DNA of 51,914 nt, taken from Stentor roeselii. Its lineage: Eukaryota; Ciliophora; Heterotrichea; Heterotrichida; Stentoridae. Shown here one piece after another: positions 2,358 to 47,240 of this stretch (position 1 is the stretch's first letter; each line of letters begins with the position of its first letter). Location of the stretch: contig RSEH01000301.1 of assembly GCA_006503475.1 (NCBI GenBank), positions 1-51,914 of the forward strand. Reading direction: 5' to 3'. The notes beneath the pieces are model-generated. The model saw only the letters and a program-made list of their open reading frames with translations. It searched no databases and was not told where the DNA came from. Position numbers and translations under genes: made by a program.

Positions 2358-3338
2358 ATGTTATTCTTAACTTGTCTCTTTACCCTCGTGTCAAGTCGCC
2401 CCCCGTTAGTCTACACAGTGAACCTTCAAAACGACCCTTCAACCCGCTGGACTCACGTGCAAGCCCCTTACGCTAAAATGATCAAGTCCTTCGCCGAGTC
2501 CTACGCTTCTCAAGTGACCCCATCGGAGATGTCTTCTATAATCACCCTGCTAAAAAATGGTTACTTAAACCCAGAACTCGCTTCAGAGCTCTCAGCCTTA
2601 GCAACAACAGTCAACATCACATTTAACGATGCTGTTTTTTTAAACTTCATGTATGAGTGGAATGCTTACTGCACCTCAATCGTGGTTAGATTGACTAATG
2701 GGACAGTTATTCACGGCAGAAACTTGGACTATCAGTCAAGTCAGTTCTTAAGCGAAACTGCAGTTCAAATTAGAGTGTTTCAAGGCAATGAGTATCTTTA
2801 TACGTCCACTGGATTCGCTTGGTACCTTGGAGTTGGAACTGGGATTGGAAGAGGGTTTTCGGTTTCGCTTAACCAGCGAGATGCTGGGGGTCGGAATGCG
2901 ACGCTTGAAGCTCTTGAAAAAGGATACCCTGGAGACTTGTGGGTACTTCGTAAGGCGTTTACTAACTTGGACTCATATTGGCAAGCTAGTTATTATTTGA
3001 GTGCTTCTAAGGTAGCAGCAAGCACATATTATGCAGTTGCTGGTATCTCAGAAGGTTCAGTACTAACCCGTGACCGAGACCGAGTAGCAGGACTAGAAAG
3101 TCTAAACGAAACCAACTGGTTCGTAGTTCAATGCAACTCTGACTACTGGACTCCAGACCCAGACGGTCGAAGAACAACAGCAATAAACTCTCTAATCTCA
3201 ATCGGACAAGAAAACATGACAATAGAGAATCTTCTAAAAGTCCTTCAAACCCCTCCAGTGATAAACCCGACGACAGTCTTCACAACATTGATGGTTCCAA
3301 GCACAGGTTACTTAAACACGACGATTTACGTTAGTTAA
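2358..3338 (+). CDS. N-acylethanolamine acid amidase / acid ceramidase-like hydrolase
   Basis: A 326-residue N-terminal-nucleophile amidase of the acid ceramidase/NAAA family, enzymes that hydrolyse fatty-acid amides in lysosomes. An N-terminal hydrophobic stretch of about 12 residues ending VSSRPP looks like a signal peptide. The nucleophile is Cys105 in the segment YCTSIVV, followed by HGRNLDY near residue 120, the hallmark of the family. SVSLNQRD near residue 170 matches the second conserved block. In the family the precursor is cut just before the Cys; that is expected here but not visible. Length is close to NAAA (about 350 residues). Its stop codon lies 6 bp from that of the convergent gene. 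Substrate (ceramide or N-acylethanolamine) cannot be decided from sequence. Confidence 0.88.
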   Translation: MLFLTCLFTLVSSRPPLVYTVNLQNDPSTRWTHVQAPYAKMIKSFAESYASQVTPSEMSSIITLLKNGYLNPELASELSALATTVNITFNDAVFLNFMYEWNAYCTSIVVRLTNGTVIHGRNLDYQSSQFLSETAVQIRVFQGNEYLYTSTGFAWYLGVGTGIGRGFSVSLNQRDAGGRNATLEALEKGYPGDLWVLRKAFTNLDSYWQASYYLSASKVAASTYYAVAGISEGSVLTRDRDRVAGLESLNETNWFVVQCNSDYWTPDPDGRRTTAINSLISIGQENMTIENLLKVLQTPPVINPTTVFTTLMVPSTGYLNTTIYVS

Positions 3339-3344
3339 AATACA

Positions 3345-5069
3345 CTATTTCTTTCTAACCTGCAGAGGCTTCTTCGATTCTTCAATCAAAACAGCCTTCG
3401 GGTCCTTCAACATAAAAATTTCTTCATCACCAGCGTCATTCAGATTCAAGAAACTTTGAACAAGTCCTTCAAGCCAAAGATCCGCCACAAAATCATTTAA
3501 CATCTGAAAATAAACACTTTCTCCTAACCGGGTCACTATTCTCTGCTTCTGTTTCAAATAAATCTCTCTTTGAATATGACCTGGAAGCCCAACCCAAGCA
3601 AATTCCATTTTCGAGTCAATAAGTTCAATTTCAGCTAAGTCTTCAACCAAGTCACTTTGAATGAACTCTTCTAAAACTTTCTCAGCGACGATGAAAACAA
3701 TTTTCATGTTTTCATTTTTTTCTTCTTCAATCGCTTCAACGACAAGAAGTGAAAGATCGAAAGAAGCGAACATATGAGCGTTGATTGAAAGACTCAATAA
3801 ATAATTTGTGATACTCGAGCTGATATTCAGAACTTCTTCTTCAAAGACTTCATCAAGTACTTGATTCCTGATATCAAGGTATTCAGAGTCAGTGACTTCA
3901 GTATGAGAATTTCTTGCAATTGAAGGAATCATCTCATTAAGGACCTCAGTGATGATTTTATCAAGGATAGAACTTGAATGAAGCATAAGACTTGCGACGA
4001 GGATTTCTTTACAGCTCTCGAGAACAAGTGACTCTAAGTTAAGAGAAAGACTCATTTGAAGCAGGTCTTCATGGAAAAGTTTCGTTAAAGAAACGAGAGA
4101 CTTTTTGTATTCCGGGTCCTGGGAAGGGACTTCAGTTTGGAAGAAAAGTGAAACAGAACTTGTAAGACCTTCACCTGCTGGAGTCTGAACCTCACCTGTC
4201 GCTTCGCTTTGTGTTTTTTGAGGTTTTATCGGCAGGAATCCGAGAACTTCCTGAGCCTTTTTCAGTCGATTCGTGTTTTTCGAGCTGTAAGGCACTGAGT
4301 ACGTTCTTTTTCCTACTCGCTTCAATGAAGTCGGCCCTGAAAACAACGGATCTGCTTTGAAAAGATAAAAATACCTACAAAGCCAACTTTCAGCAATGAA
4401 ATCACAGTCATTTCTCATCTTTTCATAGTAAGACTGGTCATGCCAGAGAAAGTCTTCTTGACAATTCACTTCATTTTTCCAGATTTCAATGAAATCGATT
4501 ACTTTAAAACTGATCTCTCGTAAAGACTCTATCATTTTAACGTAAAAAAACAGGTCAAACTTTTCAACCTGCAAATGTTTCTCGATTTCAAAAAGTTTCG
4601 ACTCACGTGAGTCAATTGTTTGAAGGACTGAAGCAATATTTGAACTTCCTTTCTCGATTGTGTCGATTTCACGAGCGATTCGCACTGCTGCCTGCATCTT
4701 CGGCATTGTTAACAATGACGACAAAAAGACTCGCTTGTGTTGTTCGGTTATTTTAAAAGCTTTCCAAGTTAGTTCTAGTTCTTCTTTTAATAAAGAAACT
4801 TGGTCTAATGAAATCTCCCCTTTTCCCTGGACTTTCGGTTTTGATGGGTTTGATGAAGAGTTTGACCTGGTTGATGGGTTTTGAACGGCTTTTTGGTTTC
4901 TTGATGGCTTTCGAAGTTTAAATATCAGTTTCGAGGGATTTTTACTTGAGCTCTCGTTTTGAGAGGATAGGTTTGCACGGTTTGTGGAGAATGAGGATTC
5001 TTCTAGGACTCGGGTACCTGGTGAACGGCTTGATTTTGCGCTGAATGGTTTTGGACGGAATCTTAGCAT
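3345..5069 (-). CDS. Unknown 574-residue helical protein
   Basis: I do not recognise this protein. It begins with about 90 residues rich in Ser, Asn, Lys and Pro (likely disordered, basic), then is almost entirely predicted alpha-helical, with many Leu/Ile/Glu/Lys and no membrane segment or signal peptide. Blocks such as LHEDLLQMSLSLNLESLVLE and DEVFEEEVLNISSSITNYL look like amphipathic helices. The frame is intact, with a TAG stop, in the GC-richer, coding-like composition of its neighbours. It is convergent with the acid amidase, with 6 bp between the stops. Such long helical orphan proteins are frequent in heterotrichs; a cytoskeletal or ciliary role is possible but is inference. Confidence 0.75.
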   Translation of the reverse strand: MLRFRPKPFSAKSSRSPGTRVLEESSFSTNRANLSSQNESSSKNPSKLIFKLRKPSRNQKAVQNPSTRSNSSSNPSKPKVQGKGEISLDQVSLLKEELELTWKAFKITEQHKRVFLSSLLTMPKMQAAVRIAREIDTIEKGSSNIASVLQTIDSRESKLFEIEKHLQVEKFDLFFYVKMIESLREISFKVIDFIEIWKNEVNCQEDFLWHDQSYYEKMRNDCDFIAESWLCRYFYLFKADPLFSGPTSLKRVGKRTYSVPYSSKNTNRLKKAQEVLGFLPIKPQKTQSEATGEVQTPAGEGLTSSVSLFFQTEVPSQDPEYKKSLVSLTKLFHEDLLQMSLSLNLESLVLESCKEILVASLMLHSSSILDKIITEVLNEMIPSIARNSHTEVTDSEYLDIRNQVLDEVFEEEVLNISSSITNYLLSLSINAHMFASFDLSLLVVEAIEEEKNENMKIVFIVAEKVLEEFIQSDLVEDLAEIELIDSKMEFAWVGLPGHIQREIYLKQKQRIVTRLGESVYFQMLNDFVADLWLEGLVQSFLNLNDAGDEEIFMLKDPKAVLIEESKKPLQVRKK

Positions 5070-7768: not shown

Positions 7769-8842
7769 TTAAATCATAGCCAAATCAGTTCCAATCATGA
7801 CAACATACATAACATCAAAATTCTGTTGACAAGAAGCCAATCTCCAATCACTTCTATCCTCAACATCATACAACTTAACATTAACAGCACAAACACTATG
7901 CGCCTGAGAAAGTCGATATTCCAGATGATTACATCCAACACTCTTAAACTCAACCCAAACCAAAGGATAAACCCCAAAATCCCTTTCAAACTCCACAACA
8001 TTAAACTCCTCATCACTCACCTCCTTCAAAACCTTCCCAACACACCTTGCATGTCCAACATCTAAAACTCCATCAAATTGTTTAAACTCCTCAAAATCCA
8101 ATTCCCTCCAAGAATCACTGACAAAGACCATAAAACATCTGACAGCTCCATTGAAATTAAAAGGTCTAGCGACAGCAATTTTACTAACCAAAGAAGGAGC
8201 AGGAGCTTGATGAACTTCAAAAAAAATTTCATTTGTCAGAGAAAATTCATTAAAAATTTTTACTTCATCATCGAATTCAAAAATTGAGACATCTTCGAAC
8301 TTGTCAAGTCTCAGAGGGTCGACAGTTAAACATTTGTGAATGATGTAGTTTTCTAGGTTGTACTTATCGTCCAAGGCAAGAGGGCCTAAGGAGAGTGAAA
8401 ACAAGTCGTTGTTGAAGGAATGGAAAAAATTTTCATTTTTTTGGTACCCGCCTTTGAAACTAGCGAAACAGTTTATGTTTCTTTGGAGAGGTGATGGATT
8501 GTTGAGAGAGTGATATGTTGAGTAAATAGTAGGATTGTAGCTCCAGAGATTGGAGTAGGAACTGTTTATTTGATTTTCACTTACACCTCCATCTGTTTTC
8601 CAACCTTCGAAGTCAAGGACTGAGTTGGATTTATGGTTTAGATATATGGTCTTTAGTTGAGAGAAGGAGAAAGCTTTTTTTATGTTGAAGAAGTTCTTGA
8701 TGTAAAAAGAAAAGAAGTTTTGAGTTAGCAGGGATTGTTTCCAGTCTTTACAGACATAAGCTACTACTGTTAATACTTCTTCGAGGGTCAGGAATAGGGA
8801 AATATCTGGTAAATTTATAGTCAGCTGCTTTGACATTATCAA
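7769..8842 (-). CDS. F-box-like protein, paralogue A
   Basis: A 357-residue protein. The N-terminus (about residues 8-50) fits an F-box: LPDISLFL, then VAYVCKDWKQ and a hydrophobic helix. F-boxes bind Skp1 in SCF ubiquitin ligases. The rest has no repeats I recognise (no LRR, WD or Kelch). It contains a block FEGWKTDGGVSE...YSNLWSYNP near residues 78-110 that is shared almost exactly with the next gene, and a C-terminal half with ARPFNFNGAV and YPLVWVEFKS that reads as beta-rich, perhaps a substrate-binding domain. It is a tandem duplicate of the gene at 8985-10046, same strand. A start at Met3 or Met1 is possible. TAA stop. Confidence 0.78.
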   Translation of the reverse strand: MIMSKQLTINLPDISLFLTLEEVLTVVAYVCKDWKQSLLTQNFFSFYIKNFFNIKKAFSFSQLKTIYLNHKSNSVLDFEGWKTDGGVSENQINSSYSNLWSYNPTIYSTYHSLNNPSPLQRNINCFASFKGGYQKNENFFHSFNNDLFSLSLGPLALDDKYNLENYIIHKCLTVDPLRLDKFEDVSIFEFDDEVKIFNEFSLTNEIFFEVHQAPAPSLVSKIAVARPFNFNGAVRCFMVFVSDSWRELDFEEFKQFDGVLDVGHARCVGKVLKEVSDEEFNVVEFERDFGVYPLVWVEFKSVGCNHLEYRLSQAHSVCAVNVKLYDVEDRSDWRLASCQQNFDVMYVVMIGTDLAMI

Positions 8843-8984: not shown

Positions 8985-10046
8985 TTAAACTAAAGCCAGA
9001 TCAGACCCAATCATAACGACATACATCACGTCAAAGTTAGCCTGATAACTAGTAAGTCCCCAGTCTTCCCTCCTATCATCAATATCATACAACTTCGCAT
9101 TGACGCTACACACTTCATGAGCCTGAGTTAAACAATATTCCAAATGATTAACACCCAGCTGTTTGAACTCAACCCAAACCAAAGGATAAACCAGTCCATC
9201 CCTATCATACTCCACAACATTAAACTCATCATCACAAACCTCTTTCTTAACCTTTCCAACACATCTAGCAGCATCTAAGTTAAAAACATTATCAAAAGTA
9301 TAAAAATCTTGAAATTCCAGTTCTTTCCAAGAGTTACAAATGATGACCATCAAAGACTTAACAGCTCCAGTATAGTTAAAAGGTCTTGCTATCGCAATTT
9401 TACTTACCAAGGCAGGGGTAGCGGGGTTAGTAATCTTGAAGAAAAGTGAAGAATTATAAGAAATTTCATCTGATTCATTTCTATCATAACAAAAACAGAA
9501 AGTTGTGACGTCATCAAATTCCTTTATTCTCAAAGGATCAATTGTAAGACACTTGTGAAGAACATGACTTTCAACTTTGTACTTTTCTTGAGGAGCTGGA
9601 CTTCCTATTGACATTGAATATAAGTCGTTGTTGAAGGCATTAAAGAAATCATCTTTATTCTGGTAGCCTCCTTTGAAGCTTCCTAAACAGTTGATGTTTC
9701 TTTTCAGGGGAATTGGATTATCTGTTGAGTAGTAAGTTGAATAGGGGGTTGGGTTGTAGCTCCAGAGGTTTGAATAAGAAGTGTTCACTTCTATTTCACT
9801 TAGTCCACCGTCGGTCTTCCAACCTTCGAAATCGAGGACTGAATTGTTTTTATCATTTTCGTATATTTTCTTTAATGTTTCAAATGAATAATTTTGTCGG
9901 ATGTTGAAGAATGTTTTGATCCAGAAAGAGATGAAACTTTGAGTGGCTAGTAAGTCATTCCAGTTTTTACTTACATAAGCGACTTCTGTTAAAACTTCTT
10001 TTAGAGTCAGATATAAACAGATGTCTGGTAAGTTTACCTCTACCAT
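8985..10046 (-). CDS. F-box-like protein, paralogue B
   Basis: A 353-residue paralogue of the gene just downstream on the same strand; by eye roughly half the residues are identical over the full length. The N-terminal F-box-like part reads LPDICLYLTLKEVL and VAYVSKNW. In this copy the Cys before the lysine-Trp pair is Ser. The central FEGWKTDGG...SYSNLWSYNP block and the C-terminal YPLVWVEFKQ, YCLTQAHEVC and NFDVMYVVMIG segments are nearly unchanged, so the C-terminal domain is under selection. The F-box-like part suggests an adaptor for ubiquitin ligase. The target is unknown. Confidence 0.78.
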   Translation of the reverse strand: MVEVNLPDICLYLTLKEVLTEVAYVSKNWNDLLATQSFISFWIKTFFNIRQNYSFETLKKIYENDKNNSVLDFEGWKTDGGLSEIEVNTSYSNLWSYNPTPYSTYYSTDNPIPLKRNINCLGSFKGGYQNKDDFFNAFNNDLYSMSIGSPAPQEKYKVESHVLHKCLTIDPLRIKEFDDVTTFCFCYDRNESDEISYNSSLFFKITNPATPALVSKIAIARPFNYTGAVKSLMVIICNSWKELEFQDFYTFDNVFNLDAARCVGKVKKEVCDDEFNVVEYDRDGLVYPLVWVEFKQLGVNHLEYCLTQAHEVCSVNAKLYDIDDRREDWGLTSYQANFDVMYVVMIGSDLALV

Positions 10047-25452: not shown

Positions 25453-26940
25453 GTTTATTAGGGTTGAGGATTTTTTTTCATTGGAGGGTATTTTTAGGTT
25501 ATGGCTTGGAGTTGTTGGGGAAAGTTTGGATGGTTGGAGAAGAATGATGGTGAAGAAGGAGAAAAGGGAGAGTGTTTGGTGAATTGAATGATTGAGCTTG
25601 AAGTAATTTTTTTTTATGTTAGGAGTAAAATATTTATAAATATTCAGAAATTTTAGGGGTTTAGAAAAAGTTTGAATGGTTGATTAGTGGATAGTTGAAG
25701 GTAAATTTTAGAATATGAAGATTGGCTTGATTCTTAGATGTAAGCTATTCAAATGCTTCATGCTTTGTTTCGAAATATTAGCCCACAGTTTCAGTAAAAT
25801 GTTTCGATGACTAAATCTTAAACTAAACATCAAAGAATATTTGAATAAAAAACGAAAATAATAAATATCAAAAGTATAAAACTTAAATAATTACCAAAAC
25901 CCTGAAAATAGAGCTTACATAAATTTAACAAGTCATCATATTATTATAAAAATTTCATTTAAATTATGCTAATTTGATTGAAAATTAATCAATTTATTTA
26001 CAATCAAATCAAGAATTTTATTATCTTAGAGCCTGGAAGACTATTTTATAAAAATTATTATTCTAGACTGAATTTACCCTTATCTTCAGCTATTCAGTAA
26101 CTATATTTAAAGAAAGATGCACTTTTGACTGGTTTCTAATCAAATCTTGATCAATCCTGCAGTTCTAAACCTTGTAATAGAAACTTGAACCCAATTCAGT
26201 AGCCTGTTTAAGTTTATTCTCATGAGATCAATGATATTGCTTTATGAAGTCCGGTTCAATATAGAAAAATATAATTTTGAATAAAGTTGTTATAAGGAAA
26301 AGTAAAGAGAATAAACTATGGGTAACTTAAAAAATCAGTAAACTTAAGTCTACATGCTGAAAACCTTTTATCTTGCTTTTCACAACAGACTTGATTATTG
26401 GCAGTATGGGGATTTAAGGTATCACTATGTTTAAAGCAGGTATTTATAAATTATCATTGTTTATTATATGGCCTATCTTGATTTACCCCTTTAGAATGTG
26501 TAAGATTACAAAAACCCTCGCAGTTGTTCCATTTTTTATTAACAAATTGATATCATAAATGAGTGGCGGAATTTTCACGATATTGTTAGGCTAGTATCTG
26601 GTTCAATTGATGTCCTTGCCAAATACCCAGAAATTAATTAAAGGAGATTCAGTATTTCAGGGTTTCACTTTAATATCGCTATGAATCTCGCGCTGAAGGC
26701 AAACCTTTCTTATCTTTCTAGAATTTTAAGGAATTCCCAACAACTCAAAACAGTCAAATGCCAAATAATGAAAAATCCATGATGTTCATCATAATAAAAA
26801 AATTCCATTAATCCATTCCACAACTTATCCAAAATCCTCTTCTCAATCCACTAAAAACCTCAAAAACCCATCACAATAAAAAAAATCCAAAAAAACCTAA
26901 AATCTTAGTCTAAAAACATCCAAAAACCCCTAAAAAAAAA
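25453..26940. other. 1.5 kb AT-rich intergenic region
   Basis: Upstream of INTS7 and of the TMEM135-like gene. No gene seen. The last 200 bp before the INTS7 start are A/C-rich (AAAACC and AATCC words), like the leader of the DYRK gene, a composition that may mark promoters here. Confidence 0.5.
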
Positions 26941-28920
26941 ATGGAATACCTCGACTACATCAAATCTCTCAGCTGTGGAGACCCAGCCCAGCAGATCCCC
27001 AGCATATCTCGTATAATCTGGTTAATAAAAGAGCAACCAACCTTCATTCTAGTTAACACAATCGCGATAACCATGGCAGTAGAATTCACTCAAGTTTCCA
27101 ACAAGGTTCGTTTTTTCATTGCAGAGTTTTTCCGTCAATGCAGTTCAGAGATGTGCTTGATTCGCAACAAAGAAGACTTTTTCCGCAACTTGACTTCAGT
27201 CCTTGACATGAACAATCCAGTGGCTCAACAACTGATGTTAAAGATTTTAGGGTACTTGGCACCGTTGTTGACTGACATGCTTGAAGTGCATCACAAGGTG
27301 TTACTGACATTAGAAGGAAGTCATCGAATTATAAGAGAAACAGCTTTTTCGATTTTGCCTTCTTTGATGATGTACTGTCCTTTGATATCGAAGCATGTTT
27401 TTGATAAAGTCATTCCTGAACATTTTATCATTAAAATATGCTCAGTTGTTCCTGACCAGCATGAAATCATCAAAAAAGCTTATACTTATATTGTTAGACA
27501 TTTCAACTCGAATAATGAAGCTTTGTTTGTTTTAGCTTCAAGAAGTAGAAGTTTTTGTACTCATGTCTTGCAAGTTTTTTTTGAAGCTGGAGAATTTTCT
27601 AAAGTAGAAAAATTGTGTCAGAAGTTCGGATACGGTATTTTAAACGACGAGGAAAAAAGAAAAATTCAGATTTTTCTTAGAAAAAACTCAGAAAAAAACG
27701 TTAGGAATAACTTTGACCTGTTACAAATGGATCATTTGGAAGGTAATATGTAATAAGAAAAGGATTACAAATACATTTATTATAACTGGAAATCAACAGA
27801 CCGTTTCGACTGGGTGTTAAAAAGACTGAGTATAGAAAACGAGTCTTCATTTTGTTTGAAACTTTTGTATAAGTTAAAAGTTCCTTCTACTTACTTGTCA
27901 GGTGTTCAAACTGAAAGTCTCGGCCTTGCTTTATGCTTGATTCGAGGGGGTTGGCATAGCAGCATGTATGATAAAGTCATGTCACTTAACACCCTGGACC
28001 AATACACCTGCGCCTGCGAGATGATGACTCAAGGACTACACCCAGAAGCCTTTACCATCTTCTCCAGTATAAAACAATCATTAAAGACTGAAAGCGAGAC
28101 CGTCTTTCATTGGATCTCCGGCCTTGCCCTTGTCTGTTCATTCGAAAAAAACAAATCAGGTCCAGTCGACGCTTTTTACTATCTAGGAACAACAGACCAA
28201 GCAGAAAAAACTTACTTTCACCAAGAGTTCCTCCTCTGCAGATACCTTCTCGTCAACAGTTTAAATCAAATCATCTCAGGACAGACTCCAATTGAAGACT
28301 TTCTTCAAATTCGCTTAAAATTCGACAAATTACTTTATCTTTTTGAAAAACCTTCAAAAGACCTTCTTCAAGTCTTAAAGTTCTGGAGAGATCTTTCAGG
28401 ATTAGTAGCTATGGTTCTTTGTTGTATGGAAAAAGGAGAAAATTTTTCTTCTTTGGTTTCTAAGTTTTACTCCTTTTTCGCAGGGACTGTGAATGAGGAT
28501 ATCAGAAGTCCTCAACATCTGGGAAGGGTTGTTTTGGAGTACCCTGTGAAGTACCCAAGACAGTTTTTTAGATTTGATAGTCCGATTTCTTTGAACTTAC
28601 AAATAAACTGCTCGAGTAGTGTAAAGGTCAATCGTGGAAATGAGTTTATTTTAGAAGTTTCTGTCAATGTTAAAAAAACTCATTGTGGTGGACCGAAGGT
28701 CATGGTTTCGTTCAAGGGGATGAATAATCTGGGGAAGGATGAGGTCTTGCAACAGAGGGTTAGTTCTTTTAATTCGGCTGGAGTTTGCAATTTTAATATT
28801 CCTGTGGTTTTGGATTTTCCTGGAGTGTTTCAGTTTAGGGTACAGGCTAGTGCGCTTAATGAGTTTGGAAGGGAAATTGGGAAACCGGAGTACTCGATGG
28901 TTACTTTTGAATGCATTTAG
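26941..28920 (+). CDS. INTS7: Integrator complex subunit 7-like protein (two exons)
   Basis: Exons 26941-27742 and 27758-28920 join across a 15-nt intron to give 654 residues. The N-terminal half is an armadillo/HEAT-type helical array with features of INTS7: NTIAITMAVEF, VSNKVRFFIAEFFRQC, then LTSVLDMNNPVAQQLMLKILG and SLMMYCPL. The C-terminal ~110 residues are beta-rich and follow YPRQFFRFDSPISLNLQI, resembling the INTS7 C-terminal domain, which starts with a similar aromatic LP..FF..L block. INTS7 is a backbone subunit of the Integrator complex (snRNA 3' processing and transcription attenuation by RNA polymerase II). It is shorter than animal INTS7 (about 960). Convergent with PSMB2, 12 bp between stops. 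Confidence 0.7.
27743..27757 (+). other. 15-nt intron in INTS7
   Basis: Reads GTAATATGTAATAAG, with an AAG rather than TAG end and two in-frame stop codons. Removal gives a continuous frame across LEEKDYKYIYYN. Confidence 0.85.
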
Positions 28921-29619: not shown

Positions 29620-29783
29620 AGGGTGTTAGGGTGTTAATAGTTTTGAAGGAAAAATATTGTAGGGTGTTAGGGTGTTAATGGTTTAGAAGTAAAAATATTG
29701 AGGGTGTTAGGGTGTTAATGGTTTTGAAGTAAAAATATTTTAGGGTGTTAGGGTGTTAATCATTTAGAAGTAAAAATATTTTC
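29620..29783. repeat. Four-copy ~41-nt minisatellite with telomere-like octamers
   Basis: Copies start at 29620, 29661, 29701 and 29742. Each begins AGGGTGTTAGGGTGTTAAT, which is two tandem (TGTTAGGG)-type octamers, followed by a variable AGTTTTGAAG AAAAATATT segment. From memory TGTTAGGG/CCCTAACA is the heterotrich telomere repeat. The last copy overlaps the 3' end of the glutamine-amidotransferase-like gene (its stop is at 29760), and the array ends about 82 bp before the PSMB2 start. Confidence 0.88.
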
Positions 29784-32840: not shown

Positions 32841-33420
32841 AGACCATAAGAAATGAAATAATTAATATCAATTTAAAAAAATAGAGATAAATTATTTAAG
32901 TTCTAAAAAACTCATGATCCTTTGACAAACTTTACGAATACTGACTAATTTAAAATCATGAATCTCTATTAAAACTGAATAATATTTTCAATTCATAGTT
33001 TAAGCAATTAATTAAACATAATTCGCAAGATTAATAACAAAATCCTAACGTCTGATTCCCACTAACCATTAAAATACGAGAATATTTCTCTTAGTACATC
33101 AAAAGCACATTTTTCTAAAAAAATATTATCAAGTATAATTTCTGATCATCTTAAAAGAGACCTCAGTTTGAAATCGTAATATCCAAAGTAAAACGGTCAA
33201 GAATATGCGAGCTTATATATGAAAAGGATCATTCAGTCTTGGATCATTTTAGATCATAGCCAAACTTTAAGATTTGAAAATTTATTCTCGGACAATACTC
33301 AAGAAATCTATTTGAATATAGAGCATTTATATCAGGAAAACTTGAATAAACTAACATAAGAAAACATAAAACAAAAAATAAAGATAGAACTTGAAAAAAT
33401 TATATGAAATAAATGATTTT
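32841..33420 (+). repeat. Degenerate segmental duplicate of 42719-43323
   Basis: Collinear similarity with the upstream region and 5' coding end of the coiled-coil gene: matching anchors include GACCAT-AGAAATGAAATAAT, ACTCATGAT...TTTGACAAACTT, AACAAAATCCTAA, TTTCTGATCATC, GAGCATTTATATCAGGAAAA and CTTGAAAAAA. Small indels and substitutions throughout. Confidence 0.85.
33126..33420 (+). pseudogene. Decayed 5' copy of the coiled-coil gene at 43001
   Basis: Aligns with codons 1 to about 107 of the gene at 43001-44446. The start codon position is TTA (33126-33128) instead of ATG. Frameshifts and stops are present, and similarity ends near 33420, so only the 5' part was copied or survived. The best kept stretch is GAGCATTTATATCAGGAAAA around 33322-33341. 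Confidence 0.8.
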
Positions 33421-36140: not shown

Positions 36141-39100
36141 CTAATTATTTTCTCTATCTAAAGATAAGAATGAAGAAGATGAAGCTGAATTGCTTTTGAA
36201 AAGATAATCATTGCTAAAATCTTCTATCATCTTGTTGATGTCTAAATTAAATGATTGGGTTGGCCCTGCATCATTGTTGTTTAATAAGTCCGAAAATGGT
36301 GTAGATATTGAAAAACTTCCAGATGTTGAAGATGTTTCATCAGGCATGCTCAAGGAATTATCTAAAGAAACAGAAGAGCTAATAGAGTTATCAAGCTTTG
36401 ACTCTGAGTTAGTATTCAGTGTTGAAGTATCAACAGGACTCGATGCACTTGATGCATCCGAAGAACTCATAGTTTCTGGTTGAGCTAATCCAGCATTATA
36501 TGAATTAGAATCTGCAGGTTTTGATGAACCTGACACATCTGAATTGCTGATAGTGCCAGGATCACTAGTTTCAATCCTACCTGAATTTAATTCTGGTTGA
36601 TTCGATGAAGCAGGTGCGTCTGAAGAGCTCGCAGAACTTGGACCTGCTGAAGCTTCACTTGGAGAGGTCTCGCCAACTGAATTGGCAGAGTTTGAGCTTG
36701 GACTTGCAGCATTTTCGGTGGTTGAGGTTCCGCTGATTGTATTTTCAGTGTTTGAAGTAAGACTTCCTATATTTTCAGTGTTTGAAGTAGGACTTCCTGC
36801 ATTTTCAGTGTTTGAAGTAGGACTTCCTGCATTTTCAGTGTTTGAAGTAGGACTTCCTGTATTTTCAGTGTTTGAAGTAGGACTTCCTGCATTTTCAGTG
36901 TTTGAAGTAGGACTTCCTGCATTTTCAGTGTTTGAAGTAGGACTTCCTGTATTTTCAGTGTTTGATGCTGTACTTACTGAATTTTCTGTAGTTGGACTTG
37001 CTGAATTATCAGTATTTGAAGTAGGACTTGCTGAATTTCCAGTGTTTGATGTTGGACTTGCTGAGTTATCAGTGTTTGAAGTTGCTGAATTATCAGTATT
37101 TGATGTTGGACTTCCTGAAGTGTCGGTAGTTGATGCTGGACTTCCTGAAGTGTCAGTAGTTGAAGTTGGGCTTCCTGAATTTTCATTATTTGAGTTTGGA
37201 CTTGCTGAACTATCAGTATTTGATGTTGGACTTGCTGAACTATCAGTATTTGATGTTGGACTTGCTGAATTATCAGTGTTCGTTGTAGGACCTGCTGAAT
37301 TTTCTGTAGTTGAAGTTGCTGAATTATCAGTGTTTGTACTTGGACTTCCTGAATTATCAGTATTTGAAGTTACTGAATTATCAGTATTAGAACTTGGACT
37401 TGCTGATGTTTCAGTAGTTGAAGTTGGACTTCCTGAGTTACCATTGTTGGAAGTTGAACTTGCTGAAGTATCAGTGTTTGTATTTGGACTTGATGAATTT
37501 TCAGTTGTTGAAGTTGCTGAATTATCGGTAGTTGTAGACGGACTTCCTGAGTTACCATTGTTGGGAGTTGAAGTTGCTGAATTATCAGTGTTTGTAGTTG
37601 GACTTGACGAATTTTCTGTAGTTGAAGTTGCTGAATTATCTGTGTTTGTACTTGGACTTCCTGAATTATCAGTGTATGATGTTGAGGTTGCTGAATTTTC
37701 GGTAGTTGAAGTTGGACTTGATGAATTTTCAGTAGTTGAAGTTGCTGAATGATCAGTGTTGGAAGTTCCTGAAGTTTCAGTTGTTGAAGTTGGACTTGCT
37801 GAATTTTCAGTGTTTGTAGTTGGACTTGATGAATTTTCAGTAGTTGAAGTTGCTGAATTATCGGTAGTTGTAGATGGACTTCCTGAGTTATCAGTGTTTG
37901 ATGTTGAACTTGCTGAATTACTGGCGTTTGTAGTTGGACTTCCTGAATTTTCAGTATTGGAAGTTGAACTTGCTGAATTTTCAGTGTTTGTATTTGGACT
38001 TGATGAATTTTCAGTAGTTGAAGTTGCTGAATTATCGTTAGTTGTAGTTGGACTTCCTGAGTTATCAGCGTTGGAAGTTGCTGAATTATCAGTGTTTGAG
38101 CTTGGACTGGCTGATGTTTCAGTAGTTGAAGATGGACTTCCTGAGTTATCAGTATTGGAAGTTGAAGTTGCTGAATTATCGGTGTTTGTATTTGGACTTC
38201 CTGAATTATCAGTGTTTGATGTTGAGGTTGCTGAATTATCGGTAGTTGAAGTTGGACTTGCTGAATTTTCATTAGTTGAAGTTGCTGAATTATCTGTAGT
38301 TGACGTTGGACTTCCTGAGTTATCAGTGTTCGATGTTGAACTTGCTGAATTATCAGTATTTGGACTTGCTGAATTTTCAGTAGTTGAAGTTGCTGAATTA
38401 TCAGTATTTGAAGTTGGACTTGCTGAGTTATCAGTGTTTGATGTTGAACTTACTGAATTTTCATTACTAGAAGTTGCTGAATTTTCAGTAGTTGAGGTTG
38501 GACTTCCTGAATTATCAGTGTTTGATACTGAAGTTGCTGAATTATCAGTATTGGTAGTTGAACTTGCTGAATTATCGGTGTTTGTAGTTGGACTTGCTGA
38601 ATTTTCTGTAGTTGATGTTGAGGTTGCTGAATTATCAGTGTTTGTAGTTGGACTTCCTGAATTATCAGTGTTTGATGTTGAGGTTGCTGAATTTTCAGTT
38701 GTTGAAGTTGCTGAATTATCAGTGTTTGTAGTTGGACTTGCTGAATTATCAGTGTTTGAAGTTGAGGTTGCTGTATTATCAGTGTTTGATGCTGAGGTTG
38801 CTGAATTATCGGTAGTTGAGGTTGGACTTGCTGAATTATCAGTAGTTGAAATTGCTGAATTATCAGTGTTTGATGTTGAGGTTGCTGATGTTTCAGTTGT
38901 TGAAGTTGGACTTGCTGAATTATCAGTAGTTGATGTTGAGGTTGCTGAAGTTTCAGTAGTTGAGGTTGGACTTCCTGAGTTATCAGTGTTTGAAGTTGCT
39001 GAATTTTCAGTGTTTGAGGTTGAAGTTGCTGAATTTCCGGTGTTTGAGGTTGAAGTTGCTGAATTATCAGTTGTTGAAGTTGCTGCATTATCAGTGGTTG

Positions 39101-42100
39101 AAGTTGGAGTTGCTGAATTATCAGTTGTTGAAGTTGCTGAATTTCCGGTGTTTGAGGTTGAAGTTGCTGAATTATCAGTGGTTGAAGTTGGAGTTGCTGA
39201 ATTATCAGTTGTTGAAGTTGCTGAATTTTCGGTCATTGAACCTTCTGAATTTGAGCTTGAACCTGCAGCTACTTCATTTGAGGACCCTTCATTCATTGAA
39301 TTTTCAGAGCTTTGGCTTGAGCTTGCCGTATTATCATTAGTCGAAGTATCGCTTACTGTATTTCCTGAGTTAGCTTCAGTATTACCTGAGGTGGCAGTGC
39401 CTGAATTTGTCGAAGCTGTTCCAGTATTACTTGAGCCAGCTGAGCCACTATTTGTCGAAGTTGTTTCACTATCACTTGAACCAGCCGAGCCACTATTCAT
39501 CGATGTTGTTCCAGTATCACTTGATCCAGCTGAACCACTATTTGTAGAAGTTGTTCCAGTATCACTTGAGCCAGCCGTGTCACTATTCATCGATGTTGTC
39601 CCAGTATCTGTTGAGTCACTATTCATTGATGTTGTCCCAGCATCACTTGAGCCAGTCGAGCCATTATTTGTCGATGTTGCCCCAGTATTACTTGAGGTAG
39701 TCGAGTCACTATTCATCGATGTTGTCCCAGTATCACTTGAGCTAGTTGAGCCAGCAGTTGTCGAAGCTGTTCCAGAATCACTTGAGCCACTATTCATCGA
39801 TGTTGTTCCAGTATCACTTGAAGTAGTCGAGCCAGCAGTTGTCGAAGCTGTTCCAGTATCACTTGAGCCAGCCGTGCCACTATTTGTCGATGTTGCCCCA
39901 TTATCACTAGAGGTGGTCGAGGCAGCAGTTGTCGATGTTGCCCCATTATCACTTGAGCCACCCGAGTCACTATTCATCGATGTTGTCCCAGTATTCGTTG
40001 AGTCACTATTCATTGATGTTGTCCCAGCATCACTTGAGCCAGTCGAGTCATTATTTGTCGATGTTGCCCCAGTATTACTTGAGGTAGTCGAGTCACTATT
40101 CATCGATGTTGACCCAGCATCTGTTGAGTCACTATCCATCGATGTTGTTCCAGTATCACTTGAAGTAGTTGACCCAGCAGTTGTCGAAGCTGCTCCAGAA
40201 TCACTTGAGCCACTATTCATCGATGTTGTTCCAGTATCACTTGAAGTAGTTGACCCAGCAGTTGTCGAAGCTGCTCCAGTATCACTTGAGCCACCCGAGC
40301 CACTATTTGTTGAACCTGTTTCAGTATCACTTAAGCCACCCGAGTCACTATTTGCCGATGTTGTTCCAGTATCACTTGATCCAGATGAACCATTATTTGT
40401 CGAAGCTGCTCCAGTATCACTTGAGCCAGTCGAGCCATTATTCATCGATGTTGTCTCAGAATCACTTGAGGTAGTCGAGCCAGCAGTTGTTGAAGCTGCT
40501 CCAGTATTACTTGAGCTAGTTGAGTCACTATTCATCGATGCTGTTCCAGTATCACTTGAGCCAGTTGAGTCACTATTCATCGATGCTGTTCCAGTATCAC
40601 TTGATCCAGCTGAAGCACTATTTGAAGAAGTTGTTGGAGTATCGGTTGAGCCAGTCGAGTCATTATTTGACGACGTTGCCCCAGTATCACTTGAGGTAGC
40701 CGAGCCAGCAGTTGTTGAAGCTGTTCCAGTATCACTTGAGCCACCCGAGTTAGTATTTGTTGATGTTGTCCCAGCATCACTTGAGGTAGTCGAGTCACTA
40801 TTCATCGATGTTGTTCCAGTATCACTTGAGGTGGTTGAGTCAGTATTTGTCGATGTTGTCCCAGCACCACTAGAAGTAGTTGAAGTTGTGTCAGTATCTC
40901 TATCAGCTGAGCTAGTAGAGCCAGCAGTTGTCGATGTAGTTCCAGTATCACTTGAGCCAGCAGAGCCATTATTTGTTGATGTTGCCCCAGTATCACTTGA
41001 TGCACTTGAATCACTATTTGTCGATGTTGTCTGAGTATCACTTGAGCCAGCAGATCCACCACTATTCATCGATGTCGTTCCAGTATCACTTGATCTAGTA
41101 GAGTCATTAGTTGTCGATGCTGTTCCAGTATCACTTGAAGTTGTTTCAGTATCACTTGAACTAGTTGAGTCACTATTGATCGATGATGTTCCAGTCTCAC
41201 TTGAGCTAGAAGATCCAGCAGTTGTCGATGTAGGTTCATTATCACTTGAGGTACTCGAGCCACTATTTTTTGATCCTGTTCCAGTATCACTTGAACTAGT
41301 AGTACCAGTCGATGTAGTTTCAGTATCACTTGAGGTACTAGGAACAGTAGAAGTCGAAGCTGTTCCAGTATCACTTGAGCTTGAAGAGGCAGAAGTTGTT
41401 GATTTTGTCCCAGTATTATCTGATGTAGAGTCAGTATTTTTTGATGTTGTTCCAGTATCACTTGAACTAGTTGAGTCAGTTGTTGATGCTTTTCCAGTAT
41501 CACTTGAGGTAGTCGAGCCACTATTTGTTGATGTTGTCCCAGTATTACTTGAGCTTGTTGTTTCTGAATTTTTTGAACTGGTTGTATCACTAGTTCCTGA
41601 GCTCGAGGTACCTGAAGTTGTTCCAGTACTTCCTGATGAAGATGCACCACTCCCTGATGAAGAGGTACCTGATGAAGAGGTACTATTATCTGATGATGAA
41701 GTACTACTTCCTGATGAAGATGTACCACTCCCTGATGAAGAAGTACTACCTCCTGATGAAGATGTACCACTCCCTGATGAAGAAGTACTACCTCCTGATG
41801 AAGATGTACCACTCCCTGATGAAGATGTACCTGATGAAGATGTACCTGATGAAGAGGTACTACTTCCTGATGAAGATGTACCTGATGAAGAGGTACTACT
41901 TCCTGATGAAGATGTGCCACTCCCTGATGAAGATGTACTAGTTCCTGATGTAGAGGTTCCTGATGAAGAAGTACTGCTTCCTGACTTAGAGGTACTACTT
42001 CCTGATTTAGTGGTACTACTCTGAGCCAGTTGTAAAAACTCGTCTGTTAAAGATTTCTGTTGCACTGAAAGGCCATCAATTAAAGCTTTTGTTGAAAAAA

Positions 42101-42134
42101 GCAGAGCTACTAAGATGATCATTCTAAGAGCCAT
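36141..42134 (-). CDS. Giant secreted Ser/Thr/Asn/Gly repeat (mucin-like) protein
   Basis: A single 1,997-residue open frame. Residues 1-17 are a signal peptide (RMIILVALLFSTKAL), then a short linker (SVQQKSLTDEFLQLAQ). Zone A (about 39-190): SSSG/TSSSG repeats. Zone B (about 190-930): 15-residue (45-nt) repeats of the type SSDTGTTSTNSGSAG. Zone C (about 950-1800): TDNSATSTSNTDNSGSPTS repeats, ending in seven nearly perfect 10-residue SPTSNTENAG units. The last ~200 residues are less repetitive and end with a short helix (FNLDINKMIEDF). I found no Cys or Trp and no C-terminal anchor, so it should be secreted and heavily O-glycosylated. Mucus, holdfast, cyst-wall or lorica material are candidates (inference). 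TAG stop. Confidence 0.85.
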   Translation of the reverse strand: MALRMIILVALLFSTKALIDGLSVQQKSLTDEFLQLAQSSTTKSGSSTSKSGSSTSSSGTSTSGTSTSSSGSGTSSSGSSTSSSGTSSSGSSTSSSGTSSSGTSSSGSGTSSSGGSTSSSGSGTSSSGGSTSSSGSGTSSSGSSTSSSDNSTSSSGTSSSGSGASSSGSTGTTSGTSSSGTSDTTSSKNSETTSSSNTGTTSTNSGSTTSSDTGKASTTDSTSSSDTGTTSKNTDSTSDNTGTKSTTSASSSSSDTGTASTSTVPSTSSDTETTSTGTTSSSDTGTGSKNSGSSTSSDNEPTSTTAGSSSSSETGTSSINSDSTSSSDTETTSSDTGTASTTNDSTRSSDTGTTSMNSGGSAGSSDTQTTSTNSDSSASSDTGATSTNNGSAGSSDTGTTSTTAGSTSSADRDTDTTSTTSSGAGTTSTNTDSTTSSDTGTTSMNSDSTTSSDAGTTSTNTNSGGSSDTGTASTTAGSATSSDTGATSSNNDSTGSTDTPTTSSNSASAGSSDTGTASMNSDSTGSSDTGTASMNSDSTSSSNTGAASTTAGSTTSSDSETTSMNNGSTGSSDTGAASTNNGSSGSSDTGTTSANSDSGGLSDTETGSTNSGSGGSSDTGAASTTAGSTTSSDTGTTSMNSGSSDSGAASTTAGSTTSSDTGTTSMDSDSTDAGSTSMNSDSTTSSNTGATSTNNDSTGSSDAGTTSMNSDSTNTGTTSMNSDSGGSSDNGATSTTAASTTSSDNGATSTNSGTAGSSDTGTASTTAGSTTSSDTGTTSMNSGSSDSGTASTTAGSTSSSDTGTTSMNSDSTTSSNTGATSTNNGSTGSSDAGTTSMNSDSTDTGTTSMNSDTAGSSDTGTTSTNSGSAGSSDTGTTSMNSGSAGSSDSETTSTNSGSAGSSNTGTASTNSGTATSGNTEANSGNTVSDTSTNDNTASSSQSSENSMNEGSSNEVAAGSSSNSEGSMTENSATSTTDNSATPTSTTDNSATSTSNTGNSATSTTDNSATPTSTTDNAATSTTDNSATSTSNTGNSATSTSNTENSATSNTDNSGSPTSTTETSATSTSTTDNSASPTSTTETSATSTSNTDNSAISTTDNSASPTSTTDNSATSASNTDNTATSTSNTDNSASPTTNTDNSATSTTENSATSTSNTDNSGSPTTNTDNSATSTSTTENSASPTTNTDNSASSTTNTDNSATSVSNTDNSGSPTSTTENSATSSNENSVSSTSNTDNSASPTSNTDNSATSTTENSASPNTDNSASSTSNTDNSGSPTSTTDNSATSTNENSASPTSTTDNSATSTSNTDNSGSPNTNTDNSATSTSNTDNSGSPSSTTETSASPSSNTDNSATSNADNSGSPTTTNDNSATSTTENSSSPNTNTENSASSTSNTENSGSPTTNASNSASSTSNTDNSGSPSTTTDNSATSTTENSSSPTTNTENSASPTSTTETSGTSNTDHSATSTTENSSSPTSTTENSATSTSYTDNSGSPSTNTDNSATSTTENSSSPTTNTDNSATSTPNNGNSGSPSTTTDNSATSTTENSSSPNTNTDTSASSTSNNGNSGSPTSTTETSASPSSNTDNSVTSNTDNSGSPSTNTDNSATSTTENSAGPTTNTDNSASPTSNTDSSASPTSNTDSSASPNSNNENSGSPTSTTDTSGSPASTTDTSGSPTSNTDNSATSNTDNSASPTSNTGNSASPTSNTDNSASPTTENSVSTASNTENTGSPTSNTENAGSPTSNTENAGSPTSNTENTGSPTSNTENAGSPTSNTENAGSPTSNTENIGSLTSNTENTISGTSTTENAASPSSNSANSVGETSPSEASAGPSSASSSDAPASSNQPELNSGRIETSDPGTISNSDVSGSSKPADSNSYNAGLAQPETMSSSDASSASSPVDTSTLNTNSESKLDNSISSSVSLDNSLSMPDETSSTSGSFSISTPFSDLLNNNDAGPTQSFNLDINKMIEDFSNDYLFKSNSASSSSFLSLDRENN
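36741..36970 (-). repeat. Seven-copy 30-nt tandem repeat inside the mucin-like gene
   Basis: Units start at 36741, 36771, 36801, 36831, 36861, 36891 and 36921, a partial one at 36951. The + strand unit is ATTTTCAGTGTTTGAAGTAG followed by GACTTCCTGC; differences are mainly a C/T at the last-but-one positions. It codes SPTSNTENAG/T. Near-identity points to recent expansion. Confidence 0.92.
39340..41560 (-). repeat. 45-nt degenerate coding repeat block
   Basis: A 15-residue period (SSDTG-type unit) is repeated through zone B of the mucin-like gene. Copies vary at many third positions and by in-frame deletions of 15-18 nt, so this block is older than the 30-nt array. Confidence 0.8.
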
Positions 42135-43000
42135 ATTTACATATCCGTTTAAAGGTTTTTATACACTACAAGTAATAATTTCATTTATTAGTTTATTTTT
42201 TGTTTAAACTTAAGAAGTTATTATATCAACTTTTAATTGAATAAAATCTTCGTCAGTTGATTCAGCTTTTTGGTCTTTGAAATCCTTTAATTCTTGAAGG
42301 CAAAAGAGACTCTATGGTTCTTTATAATTTAAATAAAAGATTAATTCGCTAAGTTTAAGTTTAATTATATGAAGTTTTGATAATAGTTTTTTAGGTGTTT
42401 GAAAAATTTTATTGTTGTTCTCATCGGTTAAAGTCTTCAGGGAAGATTTTGTGGAGATAGATTTGGTTTTAAGTTTAAGACAATGATCAGTGATTATTTT
42501 AAAGAGTTATTACTTCAAGGGTTAATTTTGAAATCGATGAAAAAGTGATTTTTAAATTTATTGTTTTTTCGGCTTTGAGGTTTTAATCTAAGTTAATTAG
42601 TTAAAAGAAATTCAATTGAGCATAATGTGATTCTTAAATATAGCATATTAAATAAAACCAACATTAATATTTGGGAATACTTACAAATCCTGTACCATCT
42701 AGCGAAGATCACTACCAAGACCATATGATATGAAATAATGAATAAGTCAAACAAATAGCAATTGAAATTATTTAAGATTAATCAAAACTCATGATAATTT
42801 GACAAACTTAAAGAGAGCTAATGTTAAAATCCATCTCTATTCAAACTAATAATATTTTCAGCATATTTTACCAAATAATCAGCATAATCTCCAACATAAA
42901 AACAAAATCCTAAAGAAATTCTTTCTAATCCAGTCAAATACCAGAATATTTTCTCAATATTTCTGATATTTTTCTTAAAAAATCTAGCATATAAAAAAAA
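42135..43000. other. AT-rich intergenic region, partly duplicated elsewhere
   Basis: Between two divergent genes. From 42719 to 43000 it matches 32841-33125 and must include the promoter of the coiled-coil gene. No other feature seen. Confidence 0.6.
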
Positions 43001-44446
43001 ATGTCAAGTTTCGTTTCTGATCATCTGAAAAAAAACCTCAGCTTGAAGCTGCATCATCCAACAATAAAAAAAACAACAATATGCGATAATCTATCTGAAA
43101 AAAATCATTCAATCTTCAATCAATTTCGATCACAACCAAGGCTAAAAGATTTAAAATCTTATTCTAAAACAGTACCCAAGAAGATGAATTTAAATGTAGA
43201 GCATTTATATCAGGAAAACTTGAAACTAAAACTCGAACTGAATAAAATAACTGAAGAAAACATAAAACTTAAAACAAAAGGATACCAGCTTGAAAAAAAT
43301 ATAGGAAAATTGAGAAATGATTGGAACAGTCCAGTTTCCAACAATGAAAATTTCGTGAATAAACTGAAAATAAAAATTTATGACCTTAAAAAAGAGCAAC
43401 GAGTAAAGGAAAGTGAATTAGAACATATGAAAAAATATATCAGATATACTAAAATGCAAGAACTTGAAGAAGAAACTTTAGCTTTTTCTAAAGAGTGTCT
43501 TCGTCTCAGATTTATCATCAATAGTCTACTTAAAGAGAAAACTCATCACTTTGATCATAAGTCTTTTGATGACTCTGATTGGGAAACAACAGTCTCAAGA
43601 AAAAAAATCATTAGAAATAAAAAAGGTGTTAATTTGAAAAAAGATTTGAATGACCCTGAAGTCTTTCATGATTTTCTTAAAACTTCAGAGAATGAAACTA
43701 TTCAAAAGCTAAATAATGATCTTGAAGTATTTCAACGAAAAATCAAAAACCTTGAAAATGAAATTTTAGACTTGAAACAAAAAAATGAAATTTCAAATCA
43801 TCAGTTCTCGATCACTGAAATTTTTGAAATTTTTAAAGCTAGAGCAACTATTTCAGGTATTCAAAACATTGAAAATTACATTTTTGATCATTTTCTTGAT
43901 TCTCAAGTTTCAGAAACTGATTTGATTAACTTGTGCAAAAAAGGAATTTTTGAATTAAAATCATCGCAGTTGAATTTGATGATTGATTACTTTCTTAATA
44001 ATCAAAATTCAATTAGCAGGACTTTTTGTATAGAAAAATTTAATCAAATATTCAAGAACTGGCAATATTTGAGTAAAAAAAGTATAGAAAAGGTTTTGGA
44101 AAAGTTATCGGTACGTTCTTTAGAAGTTTTTAAAGTGATCATTTCGAATATTCAACAATTTTTTGATCATTTTATTTCACTTGAGCCATTTTTGAAAATA
44201 CTCAAGACTTTTAAATTTATTGAAAGTGAAGAAGATGAAATTTGTCTGAAAGCTTTGGTTTTTCATTGTAATGGAAATTTTTTTAGTATTGATTATCAAA
44301 AGGTTTTTAAGTTTTTGATAGAGAAAGATGTAAATTTTGTTGAATCTTTGAAGGATGAAGCCTTTTATGAGATGACAAAAACTTTTGGGTCTTTTTTGGA
44401 TGATAATCAATCGAATTCGAAAGGTTTGAGTGAAGGTGATGAGTAA
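43001..44446 (+). CDS. Coiled-coil protein, IQCE-like N-terminal half
   Basis: 481 residues. Residues 60-180 form a coiled coil with NVEHLYQENLKLKLELNKI, KLKTKGYQLEKNI, KIYDLKKEQRVKESELEHMKK, YTKMQELEEE and ECLRLRFII, an order that resembles IQCE, a ciliary Hedgehog-zone protein (KYTKLQELE...ECLRLR). A second coiled coil runs near 235-265. The C-terminal half is helical (ISGIQNIENYIFDHFL, LMIDYFLNNQNS) with a possible EF-hand-like fold; no IQ motif is seen. So orthology is tentative. The 5' part has a decayed copy at 33126-33420, which shows that this gene belongs to a duplicating family. TAA stop. Confidence 0.72.
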   Translation: MSSFVSDHLKKNLSLKLHHPTIKKTTICDNLSEKNHSIFNQFRSQPRLKDLKSYSKTVPKKMNLNVEHLYQENLKLKLELNKITEENIKLKTKGYQLEKNIGKLRNDWNSPVSNNENFVNKLKIKIYDLKKEQRVKESELEHMKKYIRYTKMQELEEETLAFSKECLRLRFIINSLLKEKTHHFDHKSFDDSDWETTVSRKKIIRNKKGVNLKKDLNDPEVFHDFLKTSENETIQKLNNDLEVFQRKIKNLENEILDLKQKNEISNHQFSITEIFEIFKARATISGIQNIENYIFDHFLDSQVSETDLINLCKKGIFELKSSQLNLMIDYFLNNQNSISRTFCIEKFNQIFKNWQYLSKKSIEKVLEKLSVRSLEVFKVIISNIQQFFDHFISLEPFLKILKTFKFIESEEDEICLKALVFHCNGNFFSIDYQKVFKFLIEKDVNFVESLKDEAFYEMTKTFGSFLDDNQSNSKGLSEGDE

Positions 44447-46724: not shown

Positions 46725-47240
46725 ATGGAAGAATTTATTTGGATTCCAATCTTGATGTTTTCAGTCTTCATATTGTTTGTGATATTAGGAAATTGCTGTT
46801 TCAGGTACAATACAAGAAGAATGGCTCTAAGACATAATCAATTGATTGAGCAAGGAATGGTATACCCAGGACAATATCCATTTGGATCAGAGTAATAATC
46901 ATATAGTGATGGATTTAACAGATTTCACCATAACCCTCATATGCATTCTGATGATTCACCTTGGAACCATCGCACGCATATGCATCACGGCCGAATGCAT
47001 GGGAATGATGATCATATTCCTGGATATGATGATCCCATTCCTGGACATCATGGGCATCATGGACATCATGGGCATCATGGACATCATGATGATATGCATG
47101 GACATCATGGACATCATGGGCATCATGGGCATCATGATGATATGCATGGGCATCATGATCACACGCACGGACATCATACAGACGCTCATAATGCGCATAG
47201 TGATGCACATACGGCATCTCACAATCATGATTTCGAATAG
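46725..47240 (+). CDS. Single-pass membrane protein with histidine-rich tail (two exons)
   Basis: Exons 46725-46891 and 46907-47240 join over a 15-nt intron, giving 166 residues. Residues 5-24 (IWIPILMFSVFILFVILG) form one membrane span, followed by NCCF and a basic RYNTRR, so by the positive-inside rule the tail is cytoplasmic. Residues 60-166 contain about 41 His, mostly as GHH and HDDMHGHH repeats (47040-47160 is a tandem array of 18-nt CATCATGGGCATCATGGA-like units). Such tails bind Zn, Cu or Ni; a metal buffer, sensor or chaperone is plausible. No known domain beyond the span. The first exon and its splice were found by hand: without splicing the His part starts without a signal. TAG stop. 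Confidence 0.8.
46892..46906 (+). other. 15-nt intron in the His-tail gene
   Basis: Reads GTAATAATCATATAG, with two in-frame TAA codons at its start. Removal joins GSD to DGFNRFHH in one frame. Confidence 0.88.
47040..47160 (+). repeat. Coding 18-nt tandem repeat (GHH units)
   Basis: Repeats of GGACATCATGGGCATCAT in the His-tail exon, twice interrupted by GATGATATGCAT (DDMH). The + and both other frames remain open here because the repeat lacks stops. Confidence 0.85.

Follow-up and report, generated by a model that had tools for sequence, protein, structure and literature searches.

A serine- and threonine-rich repeat gene on the minus strand

The window analyzed here is the whole of Stentor roeselii contig RSEH01000301.1 (51,914 bp), which forms the entire contig C232 of the genome that was searched (44.39 Mb in 522 contigs). 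In the ORF list and its translation, the minus strand carries at 36141..42134 an open reading frame (ORF) of 1,997 codons, open from an ATG (42134-42132) to a TAG (36143-36141), whose product, called the repeat protein below, we moderately favor as a secreted slime or adhesive polymer. An earlier model-made annotation, referred to here as the sequence-only reading, had described the same 1,997-residue ORF, omitting its strand. Serine (628 residues) and threonine (477) together account for 55.3% of the protein, followed by Asn (222), Gly (165), Ala (142), and Asp (134). That reading had seen neither Cys nor Trp, and there are indeed none across the 1,997 residues. Acidic residues number 191 versus 18 basic ones (Lys plus Arg, 18 of 1,997), and the pI does not exceed 4.05, the lowest value that the program returns.

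The repeat gene is the largest in the window, as had been claimed, with the next-longest ORF encoding 574 residues when the antisense frame inside 36141-42134 is excluded. Its surroundings are AT-rich and, again in agreement with the earlier description, gene poor: from 30.8 to 51.9 kb, ORFs of at least 150 residues outside the gene number just one, at 43001-44446. The coding frame contains a single stop, the terminal one, and the remaining five frames across 36141-42134 contain from 7 to 329. The gene also contains a plus-strand ORF of 1,092 residues, which we discount because repeat codons can leave such a frame open on the antisense strand.

The N-terminal module (residues 1 to 37; 42024..42134, minus strand) combines a signal-peptide-like segment, hydrophobic at residues 5 to 13 and with a KA cleavage-like site at 16-17, with a conserved QK(S/A)L..FL stretch. 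A signal peptide, as previously proposed, fits this sequence, in that the hydrophobic stretch is the only one (the most hydrophobic 15-residue window covers residues 5 to 19) and the KA site is found in all three members of the gene family described below. No 19-residue window beyond residue 40 averages more than 0.05, which indicates that a second membrane segment is absent and supports the proposed lack of a membrane anchor.

Autocorrelation recovers the three repeat zones that had been proposed (SSSG, 15-residue, and 10/20-residue), all on the minus strand. Zone 1 (residues ~38 to 200; 41535..42023) is built of SSSG and TSSSG units, and its best lags are 7 and 12 (0.60 and 0.54 versus 0.37; residues 38 to 200). 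Zone 2 (residues ~201 to 923; 39366..41534) has a 15-residue unit, such as SSDTGTTSMNSDSTT, with an identity at lag 15 of 0.49 versus 0.21 from composition (residues 200 to 940). A linker module (residues ~922 to 979; 39198..39371) separates it from zone 3 (residues ~980 to 1818; 36681..39197), which has a 10/20-residue unit, such as SNTDNSASPT, with identities at lags 10 and 20 of 0.52 and 0.47 versus 0.20 (residues 1010 to 1790); ordered repeats stop near residue 1,790. Copies within zone 2 differ at codon positions 1, 2, and 3 in 63, 69, and 92 cases at lag 15, and those within zone 3 differ in 22, 21, and 51 cases at lag 10 and in 11, 22, and 53 at lag 20. This third-position excess is expected of translated sequence and, along with the paralogues, supports the ORF as a gene. 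The repeats of the 628-residue paralogue show no such excess (10/10/10 and 11/14/11).

The remaining 179 residues (1819 to 1997; 36144..36680, minus strand) are nonrepetitive, with a best period of only 0.20 versus 0.13, so that the C-terminal part previously put at ~200 residues measures ~180. The last 94 of these form a conserved module (36144..36425, minus strand) that is 41% identical to the 628-residue paralogue and includes a predicted helix at 1966-1978. The C-terminal part is therefore more than filler, as judged from the recurrence of its last ~95 residues in that paralogue. The AlphaFold2 prediction for the C-terminal 201 residues, made from a single sequence, contains this one helix and is otherwise of low confidence (mean pLDDT, 49), which is compatible with disorder and is no proof of it. 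The proposed role of this region as an assembly domain rests on that conservation and on a low-confidence helix. The protein had no match in Pfam (E ≤ 0.1), NCBIfam, or PDB sequence searches, the C-terminal 201 residues searched separately had none in PDB, and a scan of IMG/VR with the C-terminal alignment gave 89 pattern hits, none of which was confirmed.

Gene family, shared modules, and sequon depletion

A genome search with the N-terminal 71 residues identified two further places on contig C238, one at 36440 (57% identity, E 3.2e-12) and, weakly, one at 41784 (41%, E 0.072). These correspond to ORFs of 628 and 342 residues, respectively. The reciprocal search from the 342-residue gene returned the same three places, matching the two others at E values of 0.032 and 0.052. 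By these matches, the repeat gene is no orphan and belongs to a family of at least three in the genome, which is so far known from this genome alone, the one searched. The N-terminal module is present in all three members (14 invariant columns in a three-row alignment), and the linker and C-terminal modules are present in two, the repeat gene and the 628-residue gene. Between these two, the score is 105 for the N terminus, 182 for the linker (40 of 58 residues identical), and 143 for the C terminus, where the best of 2,000 shuffles reached 42, 99, and 85, respectively. The intervening repeats diverge, being rich in Ser/Thr/Asn/Asp/Gly in the window gene and in Ser/Glu and Glu/Asn in the 628-residue paralogue. 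Retention of the modules across different repeats suggests three fixed short modules with the repeats as exchangeable spacers. When the last part of zone 2 (127 residues) was searched against the genome, all eight matches (E ≤ 0.01) lay within the repeat gene. The 628-residue paralogue (G000:C238:36440-38326; L006:2164-4050) contains 36 Ser-X-Glu sites. This is the pattern used by secretory kinases elsewhere, and the abundance of sites suggests that this paralogue could be a phosphorylation substrate during secretion.

The family also shares a 5′ motif, AAACGGATA, which directly precedes the ATG in all three genes. In the window, it occurs once (0.41 expected), at 42142..42150 on the minus strand, 8 to 16 bases before the ATG. 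The pattern AAACGGATAN{0,14}ATATG, meaning AAACGGATA followed by 0 to 14 bases and ATATG, has seven matches in the genome, three of which are the family genes, and the reversed control has none. The other four matches open frames of 3, 5, 18, and 40 codons when read without introns. Upstream, the flank at 42135..42483 (minus strand) is homologous to that of the 628-residue paralogue, with a local score of 73 versus a maximum of 41 among 200 Markov-shuffled controls, over an alignable length of ~350 bp. The flank of the 342-residue gene compared with those of the other two scored 31 and 25, inside the null. The shared motif and flank suggest common regulation or a short common leader, and the longer flank similarity could be explained by common descent alone. 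Farther upstream, a block at 42506..42675 (minus strand) is 73% identical to C238:35230-35395, which lies ~1.0 to 1.2 kb upstream of the 628-residue paralogue (blastn E 4.5e-17). A genome search with 42490-42690 returned only the window's own copy, missing the C238 copy as well, so its sensitivity was low. The flank comparison between the window and C238 gave two blocks at E ≤ 1e-3, and we make no claim of synteny, since the second block (26447-26722) falls on the beginning of a different C238 ORF, out of matching order. That block is 68% identical to the start of the 746-residue C238 ORF and is a possible gene remnant at 25.5 to 26.9 kb.

The repeat protein is depleted of N-glycosylation sequons (Asn-X-Ser/Thr), with 14 observed versus 119 expected (1,000 shuffles; minimum, 97). 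When Ser/Thr residues are counted at distances of 1 to 40 from Asn, the minimum, 14, falls at distance 2, and the next lowest count is 60. Copies of a repeat are not independent, and the claim is therefore carried by the nonrepeat parts, in which 26 Asn residues yield no sequons where 9.2 are expected, a count as low as this occurring in 0 of 20,000 shuffles. The linker contributes 8 of these Asn residues (3.4 sequons expected; 0.7% of shuffles as low) and the C terminus 18 (6.0 expected; 0.04% as low). No depletion is evident in the 21 other window ORFs, read without introns (57 sequons versus 51.3 expected), or in an amidase-like protein at 2358-3338 that bears a signal peptide (6 versus 4.2). 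Within the repeats, aligned copies were compared at pairs in which at least one copy is not Ser/Thr. Two residues after Asn, zone 2 has no pair among 15 with Ser/Thr in one copy only, and zone 3 has 5 of 59 at lag 10 and 4 of 44 at lag 20; at other places, the same measure gives 66 of 165, 56 of 160, and 49 of 148, respectively. The genome encodes STT3, a subunit of oligosaccharyltransferase, with two matches (E 5.2e-96, with two TAG codons inside, and 2.1e-85, with none), and depletion would be understandable in a chain whose route leads through an endoplasmic reticulum (ER) containing this enzyme. We regard the depletion in the repeat protein as real and selection as its likely, though unproved, cause.

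Introns, genetic code, and other features of the window

Among 22 window ORFs, the stops are TAA in 15, TAG in 5, and TGA in 2, and the 21 ORFs other than the repeat gene contain 66 TGG codons. A gene resembling INTS7 (Pfam INTS7_N) stays in frame across a 15-nucleotide (nt) GT..AG stretch at 27743-27757. The three standard stops and the 15-nt intron agree with the pattern described for Stentor coeruleus in the available portion of PMC9505925, namely, the standard code and introns of 15 to 16 nt.

Introns of 15 nt are a multiple of three, which leaves the proposed single 6-kb exon of the repeat gene likely and unproved. A scan of the ORF found 38 GTA/GTG..AG strings of 15 or 16 nt, 19 of them within the SSSG zone. 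Most look unlike introns: 35 of the 38 have 40 to 60% AT (maximum, 73%), and position 10 of the 15-mers or 11 of the 16-mers is an A in only 5 of the 38, whereas in S. coeruleus introns average 75.6% AU and ~96% have A at the branch-point position, according to the same portion of PMC9505925. One candidate, at ORF base 3668, has 73% AT and the branch-position A and could be a real in-frame intron. At the DNA level, each SSSG unit of zone 1 (41535-42023, minus strand) amounts to a GT..AG string of 15 nt, such as GTACATCTTCATCAG, in a genome that has a 15-nt intron. An array of 15-nt introns was rejected for this zone on AT content and the missing branch-point A. Nearly all of the strings lack this A and none is AT rich, and how the spliceosome would ignore them is a small puzzle.

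Several other features of the window lie apart from the repeat gene. A 481-residue, coiled-coil-like ORF at 43001-44446 (plus strand) contains NVEHLYQENL, which is resembled by NIEHLYQENL in a short ORF at 33219-33359 (plus strand), on the opposite side of the repeat gene. The short ORF is possibly a decayed copy of the longer one. Two adjoining minus-strand ORFs, at 7769-8836 and 8985-10046 (355 and 353 residues), look like tandem duplicates by eye and have no Pfam match. Four 41-bp tandem units containing AGGGTGTTAGGGTGTTA are found at 29620-29780, between and over gene ends and internal to the contig; AGGGTGTTAGGGTGTTA resembles what we take to be the Blepharisma telomere repeat. Tandem 9/18-bp repeats (TGGACATCA/TGGGCATCA) at 47042-47157 encode a His/Gly-rich stretch in the ORF at 46941-47240 (plus strand).

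A proposed secreted slime or adhesive polymer and its alternatives

Taken together, the findings make it somewhat probable that this heterotrich-type ciliate secretes the repeat protein as a disordered, polyanionic polymer serving as slime or adhesive. The protein would enter the ER by means of a signal peptide that is then cleaved, and the mostly disordered, acidic, Cys-free chain would be exported as extracellular mucus, holdfast mucilage, or lorica or cyst material. Chain length, charge, and hydration would give rise to a gel, and the short N-terminal, linker, and C-terminal modules may handle packing or joining between chains, with the repeat zones as replaceable spacers. Which material is involved (holdfast, lorica, or cyst wall) is a guess. 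The Stentor holdfast is described as mucus secreting in the accessible part of PMC9663998 and its molecular makeup as unknown in that of PMC8511388, and the available portion of PMC13291615 names the holdfast three times and mucus, mucin, and secreted not at all. Among the matches listed, with subscription journals mostly outside, no such protein is named in the literature for Stentor or ciliate slime.

A more specific version, which we hold only tentatively and as rather doubtful, is that the protein is a component of attachment slime (holdfast or lorica mucilage) from a coregulated family with three fixed modules and exchangeable spacers, from which selection has removed N-glycosylation sites so that the ER adds no N-glycans. 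As a family of secreted repeat polymers whose ends are defined, these genes would provide testable slime or glue gene candidates in such ciliates. As a general idea, accidental N-glycosylation may be something that secreted polymers rich in Asn, Ser, and Thr need to escape, and a sequon footprint could be a sign, readable from sequence, that a low-complexity protein passes through the ER. Without secretion of the repeat protein, the case would be an ordinary one.

Several observations weigh against the secreted-polymer reading or its parts. The gene and protein are known here from DNA alone. As read, the 342-residue ORF has neither the linker nor the C-terminal module. Uncorrected pN/pS values between two members are moderately below 1 (0.18/0.24 for the N terminus and 0.19/0.34 for the linker), which suggests that constraint is present and not strong. 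Sequon depletion is absent from the 342-residue paralogue (11 versus 12.1), and the 628-residue paralogue has 11 versus 31.5 overall but 6 versus 10.7 from the linker to the end (fraction, 0.037); in the latter protein, distance 2 shares the lowest count among distances 1 to 10 with distance 9 (12 each). The repeat unit may simply have been sequon free from the outset. Non-Ser/Thr codons two positions after Asn have fewer one-step routes to Ser/Thr than others (0.83 versus 1.23 of 9), and a within-column test, using pairs with Asn in one copy only, has few informative pairs: 1 of 15 in zone 2 (for avoidance), 0 of 25 in zone 3 at lag 10, and, among 32 at lag 20, 5 for and 2 against. Finally, PF02709, which we take to be a C-terminal domain found in polypeptide GalNAc-transferases, had no genome match in an exon-by-exon search in which absence is no proof (control, 6 of 14 matched, 5 over the cutoff), and neither, with the same limit, did the O-mannosyltransferase family PF02366 (control, 7 of 14). 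A third family, PF11397, also had none, and its control was silent in 14 of 14, which makes it uninformative.

Of the alternatives, the strongest, which we nevertheless regard as unlikely, is that the repeat protein is granule cargo or matrix (in a mucocyst or a cortical or pigment granule of the secretory type), in which case it would enter the ER, be stored in condensed form with its acidic chains held by calcium, and be released only on discharge. The same N-terminal and acidic features suit this role, as do the Ser-X-Glu sites of the 628-residue paralogue. However, the repeat protein lacks Cys and any Pfam match at E ≤ 0.1, and the Grl and Tmp families of granule proteins enter this comparison by general description only.

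An uncleaved N-terminal signal anchor holding a cell surface brush or coat is less probable still. The sole hydrophobic stretch is N terminal and could anchor the chain, but it is short (residues 5 to 13), and the KA cleavage-like site is kept in three of three members. We find it improbable to a greater degree that the ORF is weakly expressed or nonfunctional, a low-complexity frame kept open by repeat slippage. The fast repeats, the modest pN/pS, the gene-poor, AT-rich surroundings with a possible gene remnant, and the lack of a third-position excess in the repeats of the paralogue would all fit such a frame. Against it stand the third-position excess that zones 2 and 3 of the repeat gene do have, the three conserved modules, the conserved 5′ motif, and the sequon depletion in the nonrepeat parts. 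An acidic mineral- or calcium-binding matrix protein of a cyst, lorica, or shell, acting through charge rather than glycans, is very improbable. The 191 acidic versus 18 basic residues and the two unmatched O-glycan initiator families would suit it, but acidic residues make up only ~10% of the protein, which has no known mineral structure associated with it here.

For the secreted polymer, the closest comparison is with mucins, and the sequence-only reading had called the protein mucin-like. This holds for composition: the 55.3% Ser plus Thr and the three tandem repeat zones are mucin features, and the N terminus fits a signal peptide, with an extracellular fate that is predicted only. The strict sense is weakened by the lack of PF02709 and PF02366 matches and by the avoidance of N-glycan sites, and with controls that did respond for these two families, “mucin” as a glycoprotein class is unproved. 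The protein also differs from gel-forming mucins in having no Cys-rich or VWD-type polymerizing ends (Cys is absent, and Pfam gave nothing at E ≤ 0.1) and from the Pro-rich PTS composition in having 62 Pro residues in 1,997 (3%).

Like mucin-type proteins, the repeat protein has a signal-peptide-like N terminus, very high Ser/Thr, tandem repeats, and an acidic low-complexity chain; unlike them, it has little Pro, no Cys, no Pfam domain, and no PF02709 match in its genome. Ciliate mucocyst and trichocyst matrix proteins (Grl/Tmp), likened here by general description only, are similarly secretory and acidic. Those proteins are folded and proteolytically processed, whereas most of the repeat protein is low-complexity sequence. 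Serine-rich silk and glue proteins, such as sericins and insect salivary glue, are likewise compared by general description only; they share with the predicted polymer secretion, Ser richness, repetition, and stickiness when hydrated, and they differ from it in that the repeats here are Thr/Asn/Asp rich and sequon poor. In kind, the repeat protein belongs with the well-known secreted Ser/Thr-rich repeat polymers, to which its modular family, common 5′ motif, and scarcity of sequons add interest.

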